From positions 331,929 through 395,928 of the forward strand of contig JAUICN010000001.1 of NCBI GenBank assembly GCA_030427835.1: a DNA stretch of 64,000 bases, in the 5' to 3' direction. The notes below the pieces were generated by a model that saw only the letters and a program-made list of their open reading frames with translations, was not told where the DNA came from and did no database searches. Both the position numbers and the translations under genes were made by a program. Source of the DNA: Polyangia bacterium (GTDB lineage Bacteria > Myxococcota_A > Polyangia > Polyangiales > JAUICN01). Below are positions 22,844 through 31,602 of this stretch, one piece after another; the first letter of the stretch is position 1; every line of letters begins with the position of its first letter.

Positions 22844-24352
22844 CTAGAGGGCGCGGGCGGCGCCGATAGCGATTTCCATGTAGTTGCCGGGTGCGATTCC
22901 GATACGGAAAACGAAGTAGGCTGCAAGCCCAATGGCTGCCCAAAGGTGTACGGAGCGCATGGGCACCGCCTGGGCAGCCTCCTGTTCCTGATCCTCCATG
23001 TACATTACAACAATGAGCTTCAGGTAATAAAAAGCCCCTACTGCACTCGCAAGCACTGCAAATATTACGAGAGGAATCAGGCCATCGCCCACGTTTACGG
23101 CAGACTGGAATAGGTAGTATTTTCCAATAAAACCGGCGGTTGGAGGAAAGCCCATGAGAGAAAGGGCTCCCACCATCATGGCTACGCCAATCCACGGGTG
23201 TCGCCGGCCAAGGCCCTTAAGGTCTTCGTAGGATACGACCTCTTTGCCTTTTGAGCCCGCCCAGATGAGGGATCCAAACACCAAGAGACTCGAAGCGGCG
23301 TAGCTCGCCAGGTACAACAGCATTGCGCTAAGCGCTTGATCTCCTGCACCCTCGTCGCCACCGGCTGCACTATGTGCATAGGCCACGAACCCCACCATGA
23401 TGTATCCCGCGTGGGCGATGGAAGAGTAGGCCAACATGCGTTTGACGTTGGTTTGTACCAATGCCGATAGGTTGCCCACCAACATGGAAGCGACCGCGAG
23501 GCCCATAACCAACGGGGGCCACCCGGAGAACGGGTCGGCCAGATTTGCGGCAGACAGGGCCACCACAGCAATGCGTACCCATACCGTGAACGCCGCAACT
23601 TTTACGACCACGGCCATGAACGCGGTCACAGATGTGGCCGCACCCTCGTAGACGTCTGGGCTCCACATGTGAAACGGAACCGCGCCCACCTTAAAGGCAA
23701 GGCCCGCGGTAATCAGGGCGGTGCCAAGCAGGGCAAGTGTGTTGTGTGCACTCCCCTCCACAAGCGCAGTGGCGATGGCCGCAAGTTCCATCTCGCCCGT
23801 GGCGCCGTAGAGGAGCGCCATTCCAAACAGAAGCAATGCGGCCGCGAAGGACCCCAGCAGAAAGTACTTCATTGCCCCCTCTACGGAACGGGGGCTGGTA
23901 CGTCGAAATGCGGCGAGGGAATAGACACCCAGGGACATGGTCTCAAGACCCACAAAGACCGAAAGTAGGTGCGTTGAGTGCACCAGCACCATGGCGCCAA
24001 AGGCAGCGAGCAGCATCACCACGTAGTACTCGCCCCGTTCCATCTGGTGCTCACGAAGGTAGGCACCCGCGAGCAAGGCCGTGATTGCCCCCGCTCCAGC
24101 GATCACTGCATCCAACAACAGGGCCATGGGGTCGGCCGCAAGAAAGGGCGCCACCAGGGGGTGCAACGCCATCGTATCGCCTTGCACCCATAGGCCAATC
24201 GCGCCCCCGGATGCACCCACGAAGGCCCAAAACGTGACTGTGGAAAGGTCGTTGGATTGGCCTTTGTCAGAGAATGCGTCTGCGAGCATGACTGCCGCCG
24301 CGCCCACAAGAACAAGAACCAGAGGAGAAAAACGAATGATGAGATCCAACAT
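22844..24352 (-). CDS. nuoN: NADH-quinone oxidoreductase subunit N
   Basis: 502 residues from ATG 24352, 4 bp after the nuoM stop; the frame opens at 24397 but that part is nuoM. About 14 membrane helices. Proton-translocating Mrp-antiporter-like subunit: the conserved Lys/Glu helices are recognisable (LSVFVGLETMSLGVYSLAAF with the TM5 Glu; GLAFKVGAVPFHMWSPDVYEGA; LVQTNVKRMLAYSSIAHAGY). Last gene of the minus-strand complex I operon. Confidence 0.95.
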   Translation of the reverse strand: MLDLIIRFSPLVLVLVGAAAVMLADAFSDKGQSNDLSTVTFWAFVGASGGAIGLWVQGDTMALHPLVAPFLAADPMALLLDAVIAGAGAITALLAGAYLREHQMERGEYYVVMLLAAFGAMVLVHSTHLLSVFVGLETMSLGVYSLAAFRRTSPRSVEGAMKYFLLGSFAAALLLFGMALLYGATGEMELAAIATALVEGSAHNTLALLGTALITAGLAFKVGAVPFHMWSPDVYEGAATSVTAFMAVVVKVAAFTVWVRIAVVALSAANLADPFSGWPPLVMGLAVASMLVGNLSALVQTNVKRMLAYSSIAHAGYIMVGFVAYAHSAAGGDEGAGDQALSAMLLYLASYAASSLLVFGSLIWAGSKGKEVVSYEDLKGLGRRHPWIGVAMMVGALSLMGFPPTAGFIGKYYLFQSAVNVGDGLIPLVIFAVLASAVGAFYYLKLIVVMYMEDQEQEAAQAVPMRSVHLWAAIGLAAYFVFRIGIAPGNYMEIAIGAARAL

Positions 24353-24356
24353 ACTT

Positions 24357-26048
24357 CTACCTTGCCGTTGCCGAAACTGTGTGTGACCCGGCTTCAAGTG
24401 CCCCTACCACGTAGTGATCACCCGATGGTTTACGGGCAGCCGCTTGCTGTTCTGCCTGTTGCTCGGCTTCTTCATCGATGGGCGCCGCCGCCCCACTTGC
24501 AAGCTCTGGGGGTAGCAAACGAAGAGAGTCGTCGCGATTGATCTCCACCAGTTTAGATTGGTAACGGGCCAGGTACTGCTCCACCGTACTTTCCATGGGC
24601 TTCAGAAAGTGGTTAGGAAAGAGGCCAATCCAAAACACCAGCAACATCAGTGGGGCCAGGGCCAGGCCTTCCTTCAGGTTGATATCCTTCAAGGCCTTAT
24701 TGGCTTCATGTGTGACCGGCCCCCAGAACATCTTGAGCACCGCATGCAGCATGTAGATTGCCGCAAGAATTACCCCCGTGGCTGCGCAAAGTACGAAGAT
24801 GCGTGACCAGGGCTGCAATGCGTTGGAGGCGAATGTTCCCGCAAGGATCATGAACTCGCCAATGAACCCGTTGGTTCCAGGGAGCCCGATGGAGCTCATG
24901 GATGTGATCACAAACAGCACGGCATACAAGGGCATCACCGCCGCAAGGCCACCAAAGTCCGAAAGCAATCGGGTGTGTCGACGGTCGTAAATGACACCCA
25001 CAAGAATAAAGAGCGCTCCTGTGGAGATGCCGTGGTTTACCATCTGAAGAATCGCTCCGGACACCCCGCTCGCGTTTAGGGAGAAGATCCCCAGCATGAC
25101 GAAACCCAGGTGGCTGACGGAACTGTAGGCTACCAGCTTTTTCACGTCCTTCTGCATCCAGGCACAGAAGGCGCCATAGATGATGCCAATGATGGCGATG
25201 GCGGCGATGGTGGGCCCAAGATAGTGCGCCGCCAGGGGGAACATGGGCATGGCGAACCGCAGGAATCCGTAGGTGCCTAGCTTCAACATCACAGCGGCAA
25301 GAATCACCGAACCACCCGTGGGGGCCTGGGTGTGAGCATCCGGCAACCAGGTGTGGAACGGAAACATGGGCACTTTGATGGCAAAGGCCAACGCAAAGGC
25401 GGAGAAGAGCCAGATTTGCGAAGAATAGGGAAGCGCAACCCTGGAAAGGTCCTGAAGGTCAAAGGAGTAGATCCCCGTCAACGCGTGGTACTGGGAGCCC
25501 ACGTACAGGATTGCCACCAACATGAGCAAACTGCCCACCATGGTGTAAAGGAAGAACTTGAGTGCGGCGTAGATCTTGTCCTTGCCGCCCCACACTCCCA
25601 CGATGAGGTACATGGGAACGAGCATGAGCTCCCAGAAGACGTAGAAGAGAAATAGATCAAGGGCGACGAAGGTGCCGATCATGGCGGACTCAAGCGCAAG
25701 GAACGCAATGGCGAACTCCTTGATTCGCTGATTTACACTCAACCAGGAGGCAAATAGCGCCACGGGAGTAAGCAGGGTGGTCAGCAGTACAAGCCAAAGG
25801 GAAATGCCGTCGAGACCGACTTTGTAGGCGATTCCAAACTGCTCAATCCAGGGAATGTCCACCACGTAGCGCAGCCCCGGAGTTTCCCAGGAGCTCGAAA
25901 GCAGGGATATGGAAAGCACGAGGTTCACCGCCATGAACGCGAGGGAACCCCAGCGGAAGAGGCCTTCATTTTTCCTGGGTGCGCCGGCAAGGAAAAGTGC
26001 CCCCACGAGAGGAATGGCGATCAACGCAGTGAGAATCCAACTACTCAT
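24357..26048 (-). CDS. nuoM: NADH-quinone oxidoreductase subunit M
   Basis: 563 residues, slightly longer than usual (about 500-510). The core is a complete antiporter-like subunit (FWELMLVPMYLIVGVWGG, FAIKVPMFPFHTWLPDAHTQAPT, WMQKDVKKLVAYSSVSHLGFV). The last ~60 residues, after VEQYLARYQSKLVEI, are a hydrophilic tail with Glu/Gln repeats (EEAEQQAEQQAA) not found in canonical NuoM. Its start overlaps the nuoL end by 8 bp. Confidence 0.95.
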   Translation of the reverse strand: MSSWILTALIAIPLVGALFLAGAPRKNEGLFRWGSLAFMAVNLVLSISLLSSSWETPGLRYVVDIPWIEQFGIAYKVGLDGISLWLVLLTTLLTPVALFASWLSVNQRIKEFAIAFLALESAMIGTFVALDLFLFYVFWELMLVPMYLIVGVWGGKDKIYAALKFFLYTMVGSLLMLVAILYVGSQYHALTGIYSFDLQDLSRVALPYSSQIWLFSAFALAFAIKVPMFPFHTWLPDAHTQAPTGGSVILAAVMLKLGTYGFLRFAMPMFPLAAHYLGPTIAAIAIIGIIYGAFCAWMQKDVKKLVAYSSVSHLGFVMLGIFSLNASGVSGAILQMVNHGISTGALFILVGVIYDRRHTRLLSDFGGLAAVMPLYAVLFVITSMSSIGLPGTNGFIGEFMILAGTFASNALQPWSRIFVLCAATGVILAAIYMLHAVLKMFWGPVTHEANKALKDINLKEGLALAPLMLLVFWIGLFPNHFLKPMESTVEQYLARYQSKLVEINRDDSLRLLPPELASGAAAPIDEEAEQQAEQQAAARKPSGDHYVVGALEAGSHTVSATAR

Positions 26049-28662
26049 GGTGAGCTCCCATCTGGGCCAATGGCTTGGCTTCGATATTACTGAAGGCGTG
26101 GGATTTTACCGGTGTCATGTCCTTGAGCCATAGGGATCGTGTTTGGGAACGAAGGTTTCCAAAACCGTTGCGCACTTCTACCTTGGTTTTCACCTGTGCG
26201 ATGAATCGAGCTTCTACTCCGCCGAGGACAATGCGCTGCCCTGGGGTGAGGGTTACTTCCTCTCCACCAAGGCCGGGCGTGGATGCGTCGTTTCGCCTCA
26301 GCACGATCGTCCCTTTTTCTACCCAAATCACAGGTGGGCGCTGGGTGGACGCTTCAGGGTTACGCCAGTCACCGGAAAGCATGGATAGGGGTACTATTTT
26401 CTTTGCACCGTCTATGGGAATGCGAAGTGTATTCTCTCGCTTCAGGGGGCCGATGAGATGCACGGCGTAGGAGGTGAACTGCTCGGGCCCATAGGTCCGT
26501 GTGAGGGAACGTTGACTGCGGCTCCATTCTCCGTCGTATTCGCCGTCGCCATCGGCATCCCACCTGTATTCATAGCCGGCACCTGGCCGAGCGGTCCACG
26601 TGACCTTGTTTCCCTCAGCCACACCCTCAAGCGAGGGGTGGGGGCTTGTGAACCAAACGAGTACCGCAAAAACGCCAAAGACCATCAATGCACCGTAAGT
26701 GTACACAAGGCCACTCTGGGCACGGCTAGTGACATGGCCCACCATCCGCACGATCCCGGCCGGTACACGGGTAAGAATCACGTCCACGAAGTAACGATCT
26801 ACGGCGGCTGAGAACTGGCCCAGTTGCCGCATGGCCCCCACCACATACCGGTTGTAGGCAGCGTCGATTCGCCAGGCGTCAAACATCCATCGCGCAACTC
26901 CCTTTTCAGGGTCGGCGCCAGGCACCCCCTTGCCATTGGCGTACCGCTGCCATGCGACGCCAATGCCCACCGCCATGGCCACCGTACCGGCCGCCATGGC
27001 GATCCAAGCTTCGCCGCCCCCATGGTGACCGCCCACCGACGCAAGTGTGGCGTGCAACCAATCCCCCCAGAGGTTCGGAAGGTGCAACGCATGTGGCAAG
27101 CCAAGGTAACCCACCACAACGGCGCCGACGCCGAGGATACGCAGGGGCCACGCAATGGCGGGTTCCGGGCGATGGGGGTGGGGGTCATACCCATGGGCAT
27201 CATGGGAAGACTCGCCACCTTCGGCTTCCTCCTCAGGGTTGGCCGCAGCGCTTCGGTAGTCACCGGAGAAAGTTAAGAAGTAGAGACGGAACATGTAGAA
27301 CGCCGTCATGGTGGCGGCGAGCACAAGTGATCCGAATACAAACCAGGTCACCCAACCCATGTGGTGCACGTGGGTGCCTAGAAGCGCGCCGAGCAGGATC
27401 TCATCCTTGGAGAAGAACCCGCTGAACAGGGGAACTCCAGCAATCGCAAGGCAGCTGACGAGAAAGGTCCAGCGCACGGTGGGCAGGTGCTTGGACATTC
27501 CACCAAGTTTGCGTACGTCCGCATCCCCGTGGGCGTGTACGGCGTGCATGACGGCCCCGGCCCCAAGGAACAAACAGGCCTTGAAGAACGCGTGGGTGAA
27601 CACATGGAAGAACCCAGCCGCGAAGGCCCCCGAACCAACGGCCGCGAACATGAACCCCAGCTGGCTCACGGTGGAGTAGGCCAGGATTTTCTTCATTTGG
27701 TTCTGTACGAGTGCCACGGACGCGGCGAGGAGAGCGGTCAATGCACCCACCACGGCAACGGTGGCCATGGCCGTGGGTGACAAAACGAACACCCCACTCA
27801 AACGGCAGCATAGGTACACGCCAGCGGTGACCATGGTGGCGGCGTGAATAAGAGCGGATACCGGTGTGGGGCCGGCCATGGCATCGGGCAGCCATACGTA
27901 GAGGGGCAGCTGTGCGCTCTTTCCGGCACACCCCAGGAACAGGAAGAATGCCGCAACCGTTGCGTAGCTGCCAACCTCCACGCCTCCCAACATGAATGGG
28001 CGGGTGAGCATATCCACGCTCTCGTTGATGCCCTGGAACTCCATGGACTGGGTGCCTACCCAGAGGGCGAGCATTCCAAAGATAACCCCGAAGTCGCCAA
28101 TGCGATTGACCACGAAAGCCTTGCGCCCGGCGGCCGCATACTCAGGTGTTTTGTACCAAAACCCGATGAGCAGGTAGCTGCAAAGCCCCACGCCTTCCCA
28201 ACCCACAAACAGCACGGGGAAGCTGCTTCCCAGGATGAGAATGAGCATGGATGCGGTGAACAGGTTGAGGTAGGTCAGAAACCTGGCGAAGCCGGGGTCT
28301 TCTTTCATGTAGCCCAGGCTGTAGATGTGGATAAGCAGGCCGATCCCGGTGACCACAAGTGCCATGATTCCGCTCAGGGAATCGATGACAAAGGCGATTC
28401 TCACGGGAATGGCCCGTTGCCCGATGTGCAGGCTGAACCACTCGTAGAGCTCCGCTTCCACCCTGGCGTCAGCGACACCGGCACCCTTCTGGGTGACCAG
28501 TTCCATGAAGTTGATTCCAGCAAATAGGAACGCCAGGGAAACTGAACCCAGGGCGACCGCGGTCACCACCTTTTTGCTGGTGAAACGGCCCGTGACTCCA
28601 TTGATGAGTGCACCGGCGAGGGGAAGAAGAACGATCCAGGGGAGTGTGGCTTGAGCGAGCAT
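26041..28662 (-). CDS. nuoL: NADH-quinone oxidoreductase subunit L with ~200-residue C-terminal extension
   Basis: 873 residues against about 610-650 in typical NuoL. Residues 1 to about 670 are a normal NuoL: antiporter core (GWEGVGLCSYLLIGFWY, PTPVSALIHAATMVTAGVY, VQNQMKKILAYSTVSQLGFM), the lateral region and a last helix (LMVFGVFAVLVWF). From about 672 (DNA 26041-26649) comes a soluble domain. It begins with a PKD-like strand set (GYEYRWDADGDGEYDGEWS) and continues with beta-rich sequence containing LTPGQRIVLGGVEARF, which loosely recalls FHA or Ig-like folds. No stop or frameshift separates the parts, so it is one protein. The function of the extension is unknown. Confidence 0.93.
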   Translation of the reverse strand: MLAQATLPWIVLLPLAGALINGVTGRFTSKKVVTAVALGSVSLAFLFAGINFMELVTQKGAGVADARVEAELYEWFSLHIGQRAIPVRIAFVIDSLSGIMALVVTGIGLLIHIYSLGYMKEDPGFARFLTYLNLFTASMLILILGSSFPVLFVGWEGVGLCSYLLIGFWYKTPEYAAAGRKAFVVNRIGDFGVIFGMLALWVGTQSMEFQGINESVDMLTRPFMLGGVEVGSYATVAAFFLFLGCAGKSAQLPLYVWLPDAMAGPTPVSALIHAATMVTAGVYLCCRLSGVFVLSPTAMATVAVVGALTALLAASVALVQNQMKKILAYSTVSQLGFMFAAVGSGAFAAGFFHVFTHAFFKACLFLGAGAVMHAVHAHGDADVRKLGGMSKHLPTVRWTFLVSCLAIAGVPLFSGFFSKDEILLGALLGTHVHHMGWVTWFVFGSLVLAATMTAFYMFRLYFLTFSGDYRSAAANPEEEAEGGESSHDAHGYDPHPHRPEPAIAWPLRILGVGAVVVGYLGLPHALHLPNLWGDWLHATLASVGGHHGGGEAWIAMAAGTVAMAVGIGVAWQRYANGKGVPGADPEKGVARWMFDAWRIDAAYNRYVVGAMRQLGQFSAAVDRYFVDVILTRVPAGIVRMVGHVTSRAQSGLVYTYGALMVFGVFAVLVWFTSPHPSLEGVAEGNKVTWTARPGAGYEYRWDADGDGEYDGEWSRSQRSLTRTYGPEQFTSYAVHLIGPLKRENTLRIPIDGAKKIVPLSMLSGDWRNPEASTQRPPVIWVEKGTIVLRRNDASTPGLGGEEVTLTPGQRIVLGGVEARFIAQVKTKVEVRNGFGNLRSQTRSLWLKDMTPVKSHAFSNIEAKPLAQMGAHHE

Positions 28663-28668
28663 AGGAAC

Positions 28669-28971
28669 CTAGTTGCGCAGACTGTCACCCGCGTCGGTGA
28701 CCACGGTTTTCTTGAGACGGAAAAAGGCGATGACGATGGCCAGCCCAACGGCTGCTTCGGCCGCAGCCACTGCGATGACAAAGAACGCGAACACCTGCCC
28801 CATGTGATTGGAGGGCATGAATCGGTTGAATGCCACGAACACCACGTTCACGGCGTTGAGCATGATCTCAATGCTCATCAGCTGAATAAGCACGTTGCGA
28901 CGGGTGAGGAACCCGGTGGCTCCAATGCCAAACAGAATACTCCCAAGGGCTAGATATTCTCCGATTCCCAT
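28669..28971 (-). CDS. nuoK: NADH-quinone oxidoreductase subunit K
   Basis: 100 residues, standard NuoK length: three membrane helices with the two conserved Glu positions ([40 protein letters not shown]). Part of the proton-pumping membrane arm. The start codon immediately follows the nuoJ stop (TAAATG) and 6 bp separate it from nuoL. Confidence 0.95.
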
Positions 28972-29553
28972 TTAGGCAGCTCCTTCGGGGGTGGTGGGGC
29001 CCTCATTCTTGGGGGAGGTGGCTGTCGTCTTGCCCTTGGCCACGGCAATGGCCCCCACAATGGCAACGGTGAGCAGGATGGATACGAGCTCAAACGGCAC
29101 CATGGATCCTAGGTACAGCTCGGCTCCGACGGCAGTCACTCCACCGAACTGCCCGCACTCTGCACCGGCGCCTGGCGGGCACTGGGGGATCGGCAGCAGT
29201 TGGGCATCGTGTCGCACCAGGGTGAAGGCAAGCACCGAAGTGGACAGAAGAGCACCCACGGCGCCGAGGATACGGGTTCCGACCGCCCTTGGCGCGCGCT
29301 GCTCGTTGGCGGTTGGGCCGATCAACATGATCACGAAAATGAACAACACCACCACGGCACCGGCGTACACAAGGACCTGGATGGTGGCTAGCAAATGGGC
29401 CTTTAGGGAAAGGTAAATGCCGCAGAGAGAAAGAATATGGATCAGTAGGGAAACCGCGGCACGAAGGGGATTGCGCATGGATATGGTGCCCACGGCAGAG
29501 CCAAGTGCAACGGCGGCGGATACCCAGAACAGCATGAGGCCTGACGTATTCAT
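28972..29553 (-). CDS. nuoJ: NADH-quinone oxidoreductase subunit J
   Basis: 193 residues, five helices, with the NuoJ core LRAAVSLLIHILSLCGIYLSL and VLVYAGAVVVLFIFVIMLIG containing the pi-bulge region that couples quinone chemistry to pumping. The C-terminus is Lys/Thr/Pro-rich (KGKTTATSPKNEG). Its start overlaps the nuoF stop in ATGA. nuoG, nuoH and nuoI, which usually lie between nuoF and nuoJ, are absent here. Confidence 0.93.
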   Translation of the reverse strand: MNTSGLMLFWVSAAVALGSAVGTISMRNPLRAAVSLLIHILSLCGIYLSLKAHLLATIQVLVYAGAVVVLFIFVIMLIGPTANEQRAPRAVGTRILGAVGALLSTSVLAFTLVRHDAQLLPIPQCPPGAGAECGQFGGVTAVGAELYLGSMVPFELVSILLTVAIVGAIAVAKGKTTATSPKNEGPTTPEGAA

Positions 29554-30929
29554 GGTGCAGCTCCAATCAGGGCAAGGGCACTGTCGTCCATGCGACCTGC
29601 ACCCGTTCCATTTTTTGCAGCTTCGGTGAACTCGTCTGTGAACTGGCGAATGAGCCCCAACATGGGCATGGCCGTTCCTTCTGCAAACGCGCAGATGGTG
29701 TTGCCCATCATGTTGTTGGCCACGTCGGCGAGCAGCTGTGTGTCCGTGTCTTTGCCCTTCCCTTCGGCCATGTGGTCGAGCAGATCCACCAGCCAGCCGG
29801 ACCCCTCACGACAGGGGGTGCACTGGCCGCAGGACTCGTGGCCATAGAAACGCATGAGATTTCGGGCCACGTCCACCATGTTGACCGATGTGTCCATAAC
29901 GATGGCGCAGCAGGTTCCAAGCATGGTGCCTAGCGCCCGATAGGTTTCCACCCCCATGGGAACGTCGATTTCGCTTTTTCCGTGCCACGCGTGAAGCGGG
30001 TGATCCTCCGCGGGGGCATCCACTAGCCGGTCCGGCCGTAGGACAGGGGTTGACGAACCCCCGGGAATGACTCCCTTGAGAGGTCGCTCGTCGTTGAGCA
30101 TTCCGCCGCCGTACTCGTCGATGAGTTGGCGCATGGTGATCCCAACAGGCGCTTCGTACACCCCAGGGCGCTTTACGTGGCCGCTGATGCCGTAGAGGCG
30201 GCTGCCCCCATCCGCTGGCCCAAGGCGACTCATTGCGGCCCAGGCGTCTCCGCCCATTTCGATAATGTCGGGTACCTGGGCGATGGTTTCGATGTTGTTG
30301 ACGATGGTGGGCTGATCAAACACGCCCTTGATGGCAGGAAATGGGGGCTTGAGACGAGGCTCACCGCGCCGCCCTTCCAGGGAATTCAGCAACGCTGTCT
30401 CTTCCCCGCAAATGTACGCTCCTGCACCGGAGTGGGTGTAGATGTCGATGGGGTAGTCGGTGCCGAAGGGTGTGGCGCCGATGTATCCTTTTGCCCTGGC
30501 TTCAGCGATGGCTTTGTCCAGGACCTTGATCGCGTGGGCAAGCTCGCCTCGAACGTAAATCCAGCACTTGTGGGCACCGATGGCCTTGCAGGCAATGAGG
30601 CAACCCTCCAGCAGTCGGTGGGGGTCTTTGACCATGATGGTGCGATCCTTGAACGTGCCAGGTTCGCTTTCGTCACCGTTGACCACCAGGTACACCTGGT
30701 TGTCCGGCCCGGGGTTCAGGAACCCCCATTTGACACCCGCTGGAAAGCCCGCCCCGCCGCGACCGCGGATGGAGCCCTTTTTGACCTCGTCCTTCAACTG
30801 GTCGGGGGTCATTTCGGTGAGGGCTCTACGCGCTACGGTGTAGACACCGTGCTTCTCTGCAACCGCGAGGGTTTCGCTCCCTTCAATGCCGTAGCGTTTT
30901 GTGAGTACGGGAGAAAAGGAGTTCGACAC
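29550..30929 (-). CDS. nuoF: NADH-quinone oxidoreductase subunit F
   Basis: 459 residues from GTG 30929, which shares its G with the nuoE stop (TAGTG). FMN/NADH-binding flavoprotein: RGRGGAGFPAGVKWGF (FMN loop), NGDESEPGTFKDR, AYICGEETALLNSLEGRRGEPR (NADH site), and the 4Fe-4S motif ESCGQCTPCREG with a later Cys in GNTICAFAEG. Oxidises NADH and passes electrons via FMN into the complex I iron-sulfur chain. The frame continues past the start but overlaps nuoE. Confidence 0.96.
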   Translation of the reverse strand: MSNSFSPVLTKRYGIEGSETLAVAEKHGVYTVARRALTEMTPDQLKDEVKKGSIRGRGGAGFPAGVKWGFLNPGPDNQVYLVVNGDESEPGTFKDRTIMVKDPHRLLEGCLIACKAIGAHKCWIYVRGELAHAIKVLDKAIAEARAKGYIGATPFGTDYPIDIYTHSGAGAYICGEETALLNSLEGRRGEPRLKPPFPAIKGVFDQPTIVNNIETIAQVPDIIEMGGDAWAAMSRLGPADGGSRLYGISGHVKRPGVYEAPVGITMRQLIDEYGGGMLNDERPLKGVIPGGSSTPVLRPDRLVDAPAEDHPLHAWHGKSEIDVPMGVETYRALGTMLGTCCAIVMDTSVNMVDVARNLMRFYGHESCGQCTPCREGSGWLVDLLDHMAEGKGKDTDTQLLADVANNMMGNTICAFAEGTAMPMLGLIRQFTDEFTEAAKNGTGAGRMDDSALALIGAAP

Positions 30930-31423
30930 TATTTGCCCTCCGGGGTCTTGGCTGCGATCTGGTCCAGCACGGCGTCCAGTTTCTCGATGGTGAGATCCTC
31001 GTAGTAGTCGTCGTTGACCTGAATCATGGGCGCCTGACCGCAGGCCGCGAGGCATTCCGCCTTAAGTAAGGTGAACTTTCCGTCCGTGCTGGTGCCGCCG
31101 GCGCTGCAGCCGAACCGCTTTTCCATGTGTTCTTGCACGGCTTTTGCGCCTCGGAGCTCGCAGGAAAGGGTTCTGCAGACCCAAACCACGTTGGGCGCCA
31201 CCTTTTTCTCGTGGAACATCGTGTAAAACGTGACCACTCCTTTTACAGCAGCGGTGGAGAGTTCAAGCTTCTCTGCCACGAACGCAATCACTTCGTCGTT
31301 GGTCCACCCGGTTTGCCTCTGGCATAGCCATAGGAGAGGCAGGCACGCCGCACGCTTGGTGGGGTACCGGGCGATGATTTCGTCTGCTTCCCGCGTCTGT
31401 TCCGGGCTCAGTTGAAACGCCAT
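30929..31423 (-). CDS. nuoE: NADH-quinone oxidoreductase subunit E
   Basis: 164 residues from ATG 31423. Thioredoxin-like 2Fe-2S protein with the four ligands in VCRTLSCELRG and AECLAACGQAP; N-terminal helical region LLWLCQRQTGWTNDEVIAFVAEKL. Binds NuoF and holds the off-path N1a cluster. A GTG at 31465 would add 14 residues but lacks a properly spaced ribosome site. First gene of the minus-strand nuo operon; divergent from mlaF. Confidence 0.93.
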   Translation of the reverse strand: MAFQLSPEQTREADEIIARYPTKRAACLPLLWLCQRQTGWTNDEVIAFVAEKLELSTAAVKGVVTFYTMFHEKKVAPNVVWVCRTLSCELRGAKAVQEHMEKRFGCSAGGTSTDGKFTLLKAECLAACGQAPMIQVNDDYYEDLTIEKLDAVLDQIAAKTPEGK

Positions 31424-31602
31424 GGATGTTACCGTCGCTCCGTCTTCACTTAAGTTTTTGGCCACTCCAGCCTCAGGCCACTTTAACCTTAAGTTCTGGG
31501 GTCACTTTGGGTAGCGCCAAGCTAGGCGCGCCCTATCTTAATGTCAAGGAGCTCAGGAGGGTTGGATTCTTCAACCTACCCCTGTTTGGCTACCCCTGGC
31601 CC

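Follow-up and report, generated by a model that had tools for sequence, protein, structure and literature searches.

The nuo locus and the NuoL product

The window (the whole 64,000-nucleotide stretch of Polyangia bacterium DNA that was analysed) carries complex I genes in the order nuoE-F-J-K-L-M-N (22844-31465), with nuoE, nuoF, nuoJ and nuoK identified from their sequence only. The nuo set of this genome is split, in that nuoD and nuoH lie on another contig (G000:C27:51408-54971). Because NuoH and NuoD have one match apiece in the genome, the window NuoL appears to serve its sole complex I. The nuoL product matches curated NuoL models (TIGR01974 at 646 bits against a cut-off of 407.5, and also NF005141), but only over residues 7-672, the match ending at the last helix (end 671-672). 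The full-length AF2 model has 16 transmembrane (TM) helices, TM1-15 and TMH16, with the lateral helix HL before TMH16, and Foldseek relates it to solved NuoL/ND5 chains with E values down to 1e-34. Beyond TMH16 the product runs on into the tail described here (Table 1). In the full-length model pLDDT falls below 50 at the hinge of residues 649-654, and hence the placement of the tail against the membrane is not predicted.

The end of nuoL, at its stop, and the start of nuoM share 8 bases, which leaves no space in which a separate gene could lie before nuoM. A frameshift, a mis-assembly or a separate gene was rejected as the source of the tail on this ground and on three others: the open frame, the 83 relatives with a tail in the same frame and position, and the purifying selection described below.

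Two further features of the locus were noted. NuoL has an acidic, His-rich insertion, EEEAEGGESSHDAHGYDPHPHRPEP, at residues 468-498 (window 27169-27261), between TM13 and TM14; it is cytoplasmic by helix count, and model confidence there is low. The product of nuoM (window 24357-26048) is also extended at its C-terminus, by ~60 residues beyond the NuoM of other phyla; this extension is common to Polyangia relatives, is of low complexity past its first 25 residues and, being periplasmic by helix count, would share its side of the membrane with the NuoL tail.

Table 1. Features of nuoL and its product, in window coordinates
Feature	Position	Strand	Basis
nuoL CDS (NADH-quinone oxidoreductase subunit L with C-terminal extension)	26041..28662	-	873 aa, single uninterrupted frame
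Antiporter core, residues 1-574, TM1-TM15, beta-hairpin at 68-93	26941..28662	-	AF2 full-length model; Foldseek
Lateral amphipathic helix HL, residues 596-649, cytoplasmic face	26716..26877	-	AF2 model; side by homology (PMC7419157)
TMH16, residues 654-672	26647..26703	-	AF2 models
C-terminal tail, residues 672-873, 202 residues	26044..26649	-	Model match end, AF2
PKD-like sandwich, first part, residues 674-725, invariant-type PH linker and PGxGYxYRWD	26488..26643	-	AF2, alignment; PF00801 matches in relatives
GxGY loop, residues 694-697, among the most conserved of the tail	26572..26583	-	Alignment of 83 tails
DADGDGEYD, DxDxDG-type candidate calcium loop, residues 702-710	26533..26559	-	Alignment; weak EF-hand and ColH PKD matches
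FHA-like beta-sandwich in EF turn of the PKD-like fold, residues 731-826	26185..26472	-	Foldseek, insert alignment
PKD-like sandwich, last two strands, residues 827-847, N-A/G-F-G turn at 832-835	26122..26184	-	AF2, alignment
Low-confidence end, probably disordered, residues 848-873	26044..26121	-	pLDDT 51-62 mostly; 31-47 from residue 851 in full-length model

Anatomy and fold of the tail

The tail, which contains DADGDGEYDGEW, comes out as beta-rich in AF2 models of TMH16 plus tail built with 60 relatives (mean pLDDT 89; about 97 in the first sandwich and 91-98 in most of the second). The prediction, made with high confidence, is of a PKD-like beta-sandwich in which one turn holds a second sandwich of FHA-like fold. 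The first-pass annotation had described a NuoL with a beta-rich C-terminal domain of some 200 residues after a normal last helix, and had seen a PKD-like segment in it. Both descriptions stand, the latter as a PKD-like fold with PF00801 matches among relatives, and structure prediction and fold search (AF2, Foldseek) return a folded domain of two nested sandwiches; the nested FHA-like insert had been missed.

Alignment of the tails of 83 distinct relatives defines a common core of ~90 residues, made up of the P-H linker, strands A and B, (A)PGxGYxYRWDxDgDGxxD, strand E, LEVxNAFG and strand G. Near-invariant in this core are P674 (80/83 tails), A691, G694 (79/83), G696, Y697 (77/83), Y699, W701, G707, V830, N832 (74/83) and F834 (79/83). 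The strict DxDxDGxxD pattern, of the calcium-loop type, is present in 45 of the 83 tails and has been lost in many members, for example Sorangium and Polyangium. The FHA-like insert (~95 residues, between strands E and F) occurs in 31 of the 83, the window tail included. A second type of insert, ~85 residues placed after the calcium-type DG loop, was seen in L007, L008, L011, L033, L089 and L102; L153, with a tail of 330 residues, is listed alongside them.

The PKD identity of the window tail is suggested by its relatives and not by a match of its own, as searches of this tail against Pfam and PDB sequences gave no significant match and the PF00801 gathering score was not reached. Two class-mates do pass Pfam cut-offs (the G265 tail at 30.7 against 23.5 for PF00801, and the G042 tail for PKD_4), 18 of 60 order tails match PF00801 at E<1 (best 2e-4), and profile-profile alignment joins class tails to order tails at a probability of 95% (E 3e-8). 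The strand order of the AF2 model fits a PKD beta-sandwich; Foldseek listed Ig-like, FnIII and SiiE structures at low TM-score without singling out PKD, and pairs of Ig-like or FnIII domains match the whole tail, also at low TM-score. With known PKD domains (PF00801, PF18911) the tail shares its predicted strand order, the Y.WD.DGDG motif and the V..N/D.FG turn; it differs from them in its lack of a significant Pfam match and in being interrupted by the FHA-like domain.

For the insert, Foldseek gives the FHA fold with probabilities of 0.98-1.00 and TM-scores, by target, of 0.39-0.63 over ~100 columns. Many inserts also have the NG-then-L.pG...iG pattern in common with FHA domains (PF00498). 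The differences are that the insert is shorter, would be periplasmic, and shows no significant match to the FHA family by sequence (best E 0.3, in 1 of 24 members), and that, by eye, none of the phosphothreonine-binding residues of FHA (GR, SxxH) is conserved in the 31 aligned inserts, neither the Arg nor the Ser-x-x-His. Matches of the tail to HipA, collagenase ColH, EF-hand and beta-trefoil were weak and were read as chance or motif matches.

Distribution of the tail and selection on it

NuoL sequences were gathered by tblastn and ORF comparison over public genomes, together with genomes read by kinship. The tblastn/ORF comparison found tails of 96-307 residues on the NuoL of Sandaracinaceae, Polyangiaceae, Sorangium, Polyangium and Minicystis. 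Within the same order a PKD-like tail of 89-330 residues occurs at the same place in all main-copy NuoL read, from 11 families (f1-f7, f56, f58-f60). Among other families of the same class, 4 of 5 (f8, f9, f10, f15) have a tail of 88-104 residues with the PKD pattern; the fifth, f11 (L108-L110), has one of 62-87 residues without that pattern, e.g., TVSSLEPSAVHRVQ, which would be either a decayed or a replaced tail. In the other classes of the phylum (15 families) NuoL ends 1-8 residues past TMH16, so that the search for the extension in other Myxococcota succeeds for one class and fails for the rest of the phylum. In Bacteroidota, Planctomycetota, Acidobacteriota, Omnitrophota, Chloroflexota and others, mostly 3-9 residues follow TMH16, an absence outside Myxococcota that comes from a scan biased to peptides of the window NuoL; one Sericytochromatia NuoL record has 42 residues there, resembling another helix. 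Moreover, several order-mates have second, paralogous NuoL copies (L156-L160) that are tail-less, ending 2-5 residues past TMH16 (L161, a distant NuoL paralog, is not alignable at TMH16). The tail is therefore restricted to one class and one paralog, and is not phylum-wide. Because class and order tails align as profiles, a single gain, at the base of the class or close to it, with later loss or decay in f11, would fit this pattern.

In 17 of 17 close pairs the tail has a dN/dS below 1 (0.16-0.83), and in the nine pairs compared with the last 181 core codons the ranges are 0.16-0.50 for the tail and 0.10-0.46 for the core, low dS in some pairs making single values rough. These ratios show purifying selection on the tail, if not quite as strong as on the core.

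Side of the membrane and position in complex I

Four lines of evidence give good support to a periplasmic location of the tail: the number of helices, the charge of the loops, cysteine pairs in some relatives and the calcium-type loop. Both Mrp and complex I have HL at the cytoplasmic face of the membrane and the beta-hairpins at the periplasmic face (PMC7419157). Between the periplasmic beta-hairpin after TM2 and the tail there are 14 helices, an even number, and hence both should be periplasmic. The cytoplasmic residues, 182 in all, include 22 lysines and arginines (11 among 103 loop residues and 11 among the 79 of the HL stretch), compared with 6 among the 138 residues of the periplasmic loops. 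Most tails (72 of 83) are free of cysteine; in f4, exactly two cysteines flank one loop in 6 of 6 tails read, and f60 has a close cysteine pair, an arrangement that suits a disulfide-forming compartment.

If a domain of PKD or FnIII topology has its N-terminus at the membrane, its BC and FG loops and its linker point to the membrane, and its CC' and EF turns are found at the opposite, outer end. The GxGY of the BC loop, the NAFG of the FG loop and the PH linker would all be at the membrane end, and so, going by strand order, the constrained face of the tail would be turned toward complex I and the inserts would be at its outer end.

As to where along the membrane arm this would be, HL in solved complexes spans from TMH15, at the tip, to TMH16; at that far end of HL, TMH16 adjoins ND2/NuoN, ND4L/NuoK and ND6/NuoJ and, in bacterial structures, has ND6 TMH4 packed against it (PMC8762328). 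By analogy with these homologous structures, the tail would lie beneath NuoN, NuoK and NuoJ and so below the inner half of the arm, away from its distal tip. The proposal of the first-pass annotation that the domain caps the distal end of the arm was rejected on this position of TMH16, which the tail directly follows.

Comparison with known systems

The window protein has the features of NuoL/ND5/Nqo12 (TIGR01974), namely 16 TM helices, the beta-hairpin, the lateral helix and TMH16; the difference is that nearly all others read end 1-9 residues past TMH16, and this one adds ~200 residues in two sandwiches. The initial claim that no typical complex I antiporter subunit has such a domain agrees with the solved structures: among the NuoL/ND5 chains found in the PDB none has a comparable soluble C-terminal domain, judged by length and name, the longest being plant NdhF (777 aa) and an N-terminally extended ND5 (750 aa). 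MrpA chains exceed these in length owing to added TM helices; the NuoL-like part of MrpA also runs past TMH16 (PMC7419157), but its continuation consists of NuoJ-like TM helices and not of a soluble domain.

Also comparable are the C-termini of NuoB, NuoF and NuoI and the loop of NuoG in Escherichia coli, which are likewise lineage-specific extensions of core subunits in place of extra subunits (PMC8357420). Those cytoplasmic extensions of the peripheral arm are short and for the most part lack secondary structure, whereas the NuoL tail is predicted to be folded, periplasmic and on the membrane arm. In expected location the tail resembles the mitochondrial accessory subunits NDUFS5 and NDUFA11/B4/B8, which occupy the outer face of ND6/ND4L/ND2 or anchor the ND5 lateral helix and TMH16 (PMC8762328), but these are separate alpha-helical polypeptides whose fold is unrelated. 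Unlike such accessory (supernumerary) subunits, the tail is fused in frame to NuoL in every case. A search of freely accessible journal papers found no description of a C-terminal, PKD or periplasmic domain on NuoL.

Interpretation

Our preferred explanation, to which we give about an even chance of being right, is that the tail is a periplasmic brace fused to NuoL that holds TMH16 and the lateral helix. Past TMH16 the polypeptide would emerge into the periplasm and fold into the PKD-like beta-sandwich, stabilised by Ca2+ in many species as predicted from the loop motif, and in the window species the FHA-like sandwich would be inserted at the outer end. With TMH16 as the far anchor of the lateral helix, packed beside NuoN, NuoK and NuoJ, the domain would sit under the inner half of the arm and would pin TMH16, and thereby the lateral helix, to the periplasmic faces of these three subunits. 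The contact surface, the binding of Ca2+ and the stabilising function are what we infer for the tail. There are precedents in that mitochondria have separate accessory subunits at these places, NDUFS5 on the outer face and NDUFA11, NDUFB4 and NDUFB8 over the lateral helix (PMC8762328), and in that the E. coli extensions make the peripheral arm more stable and occupy sites that overlap those of accessory subunits (PMC8357420). Moreover, TMH16, HL and ND6 TMH4 are together poorly resolved in some mammalian maps of the resting or deactivated enzyme (PMC10036122), which makes the TMH16/HL anchor a plausible weak point. On the other side, the FHA-like and other inserts vary among tails, the f11 tail without the PKD pattern means that the PKD domain is not indispensable, and the conserved Y, W and G residues may serve folding only.

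The tail could instead be a docking module, the other role proposed in the first-pass annotation, that binds another respiratory complex or a periplasmic electron carrier and so builds a lineage-specific supercomplex. It would face the side of cytochrome c and of the domains of complexes III and IV, PKD-like and FHA-like folds are common protein-binding folds, and outer-end inserts of differing size would suit a changing partner; however, conservation would be highest at the membrane end, with most of the variation in the outer parts, and we consider docking rather unlikely. Anchorage of complex I to peptidoglycan or to an outer-membrane protein would agree with the frequency of PKD domains in extracytoplasmic, polymer-binding proteins, but a domain that starts two residues past TMH16 and in many species has only ~90 aa has little reach, Pfam searches of the tails matched no peptidoglycan-binding family, and we regard such a link as very improbable.

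The tail might also regulate coupling, holding TMH16 by NuoJ TMH4 and thus setting the open/closed or active/deactive equilibrium, perhaps through periplasmic Ca2+. The packing of ND6 TMH4 on TMH16, the joint weak density in the mammalian maps cited above and the DxDxDG loop in over half of the tails point this way; the loop is not universal, however, and this role seems unlikely. That an ancient fusion is merely tolerated, or is cleaved off, would explain a tail that evolves faster than the core and varies in length. Its retention in all order-mates read, the dN/dS below 1 in every close pair tested and the near-invariant residues argue otherwise, and make a neutral passenger quite unlikely. 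A wider proposal, held tentatively and as well short of probable, is that the whole class has a rebuilt periplasmic face of complex I, in which the tail would be either a docking platform for a periplasmic or membrane partner or a Ca2+-responsive gate acting through TMH16 and NuoJ TMH4; if true, this would be a complex I regulation or a supercomplex bridge of a kind not described before.

Complex I is well studied in its architecture, yet the bacterial structures come from few lineages. The tail would be a lineage-wide, conserved and folded domain on a face where known bacterial enzymes have almost nothing and mitochondria have many accessory subunits, and extension of core subunits, known for the peripheral arm of E. 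coli, would thus occur on the membrane arm too. Since some order-mates also have a tail-less second copy of NuoL, a single cell may contain both tailed and tail-less complex I, which would be a natural comparison. More generally, the tail offers a natural test of what accessory subunits may do when they brace TMH16 and the lateral helix, be it stabilisation of the arm, the open/closed equilibrium or the building of supercomplexes.
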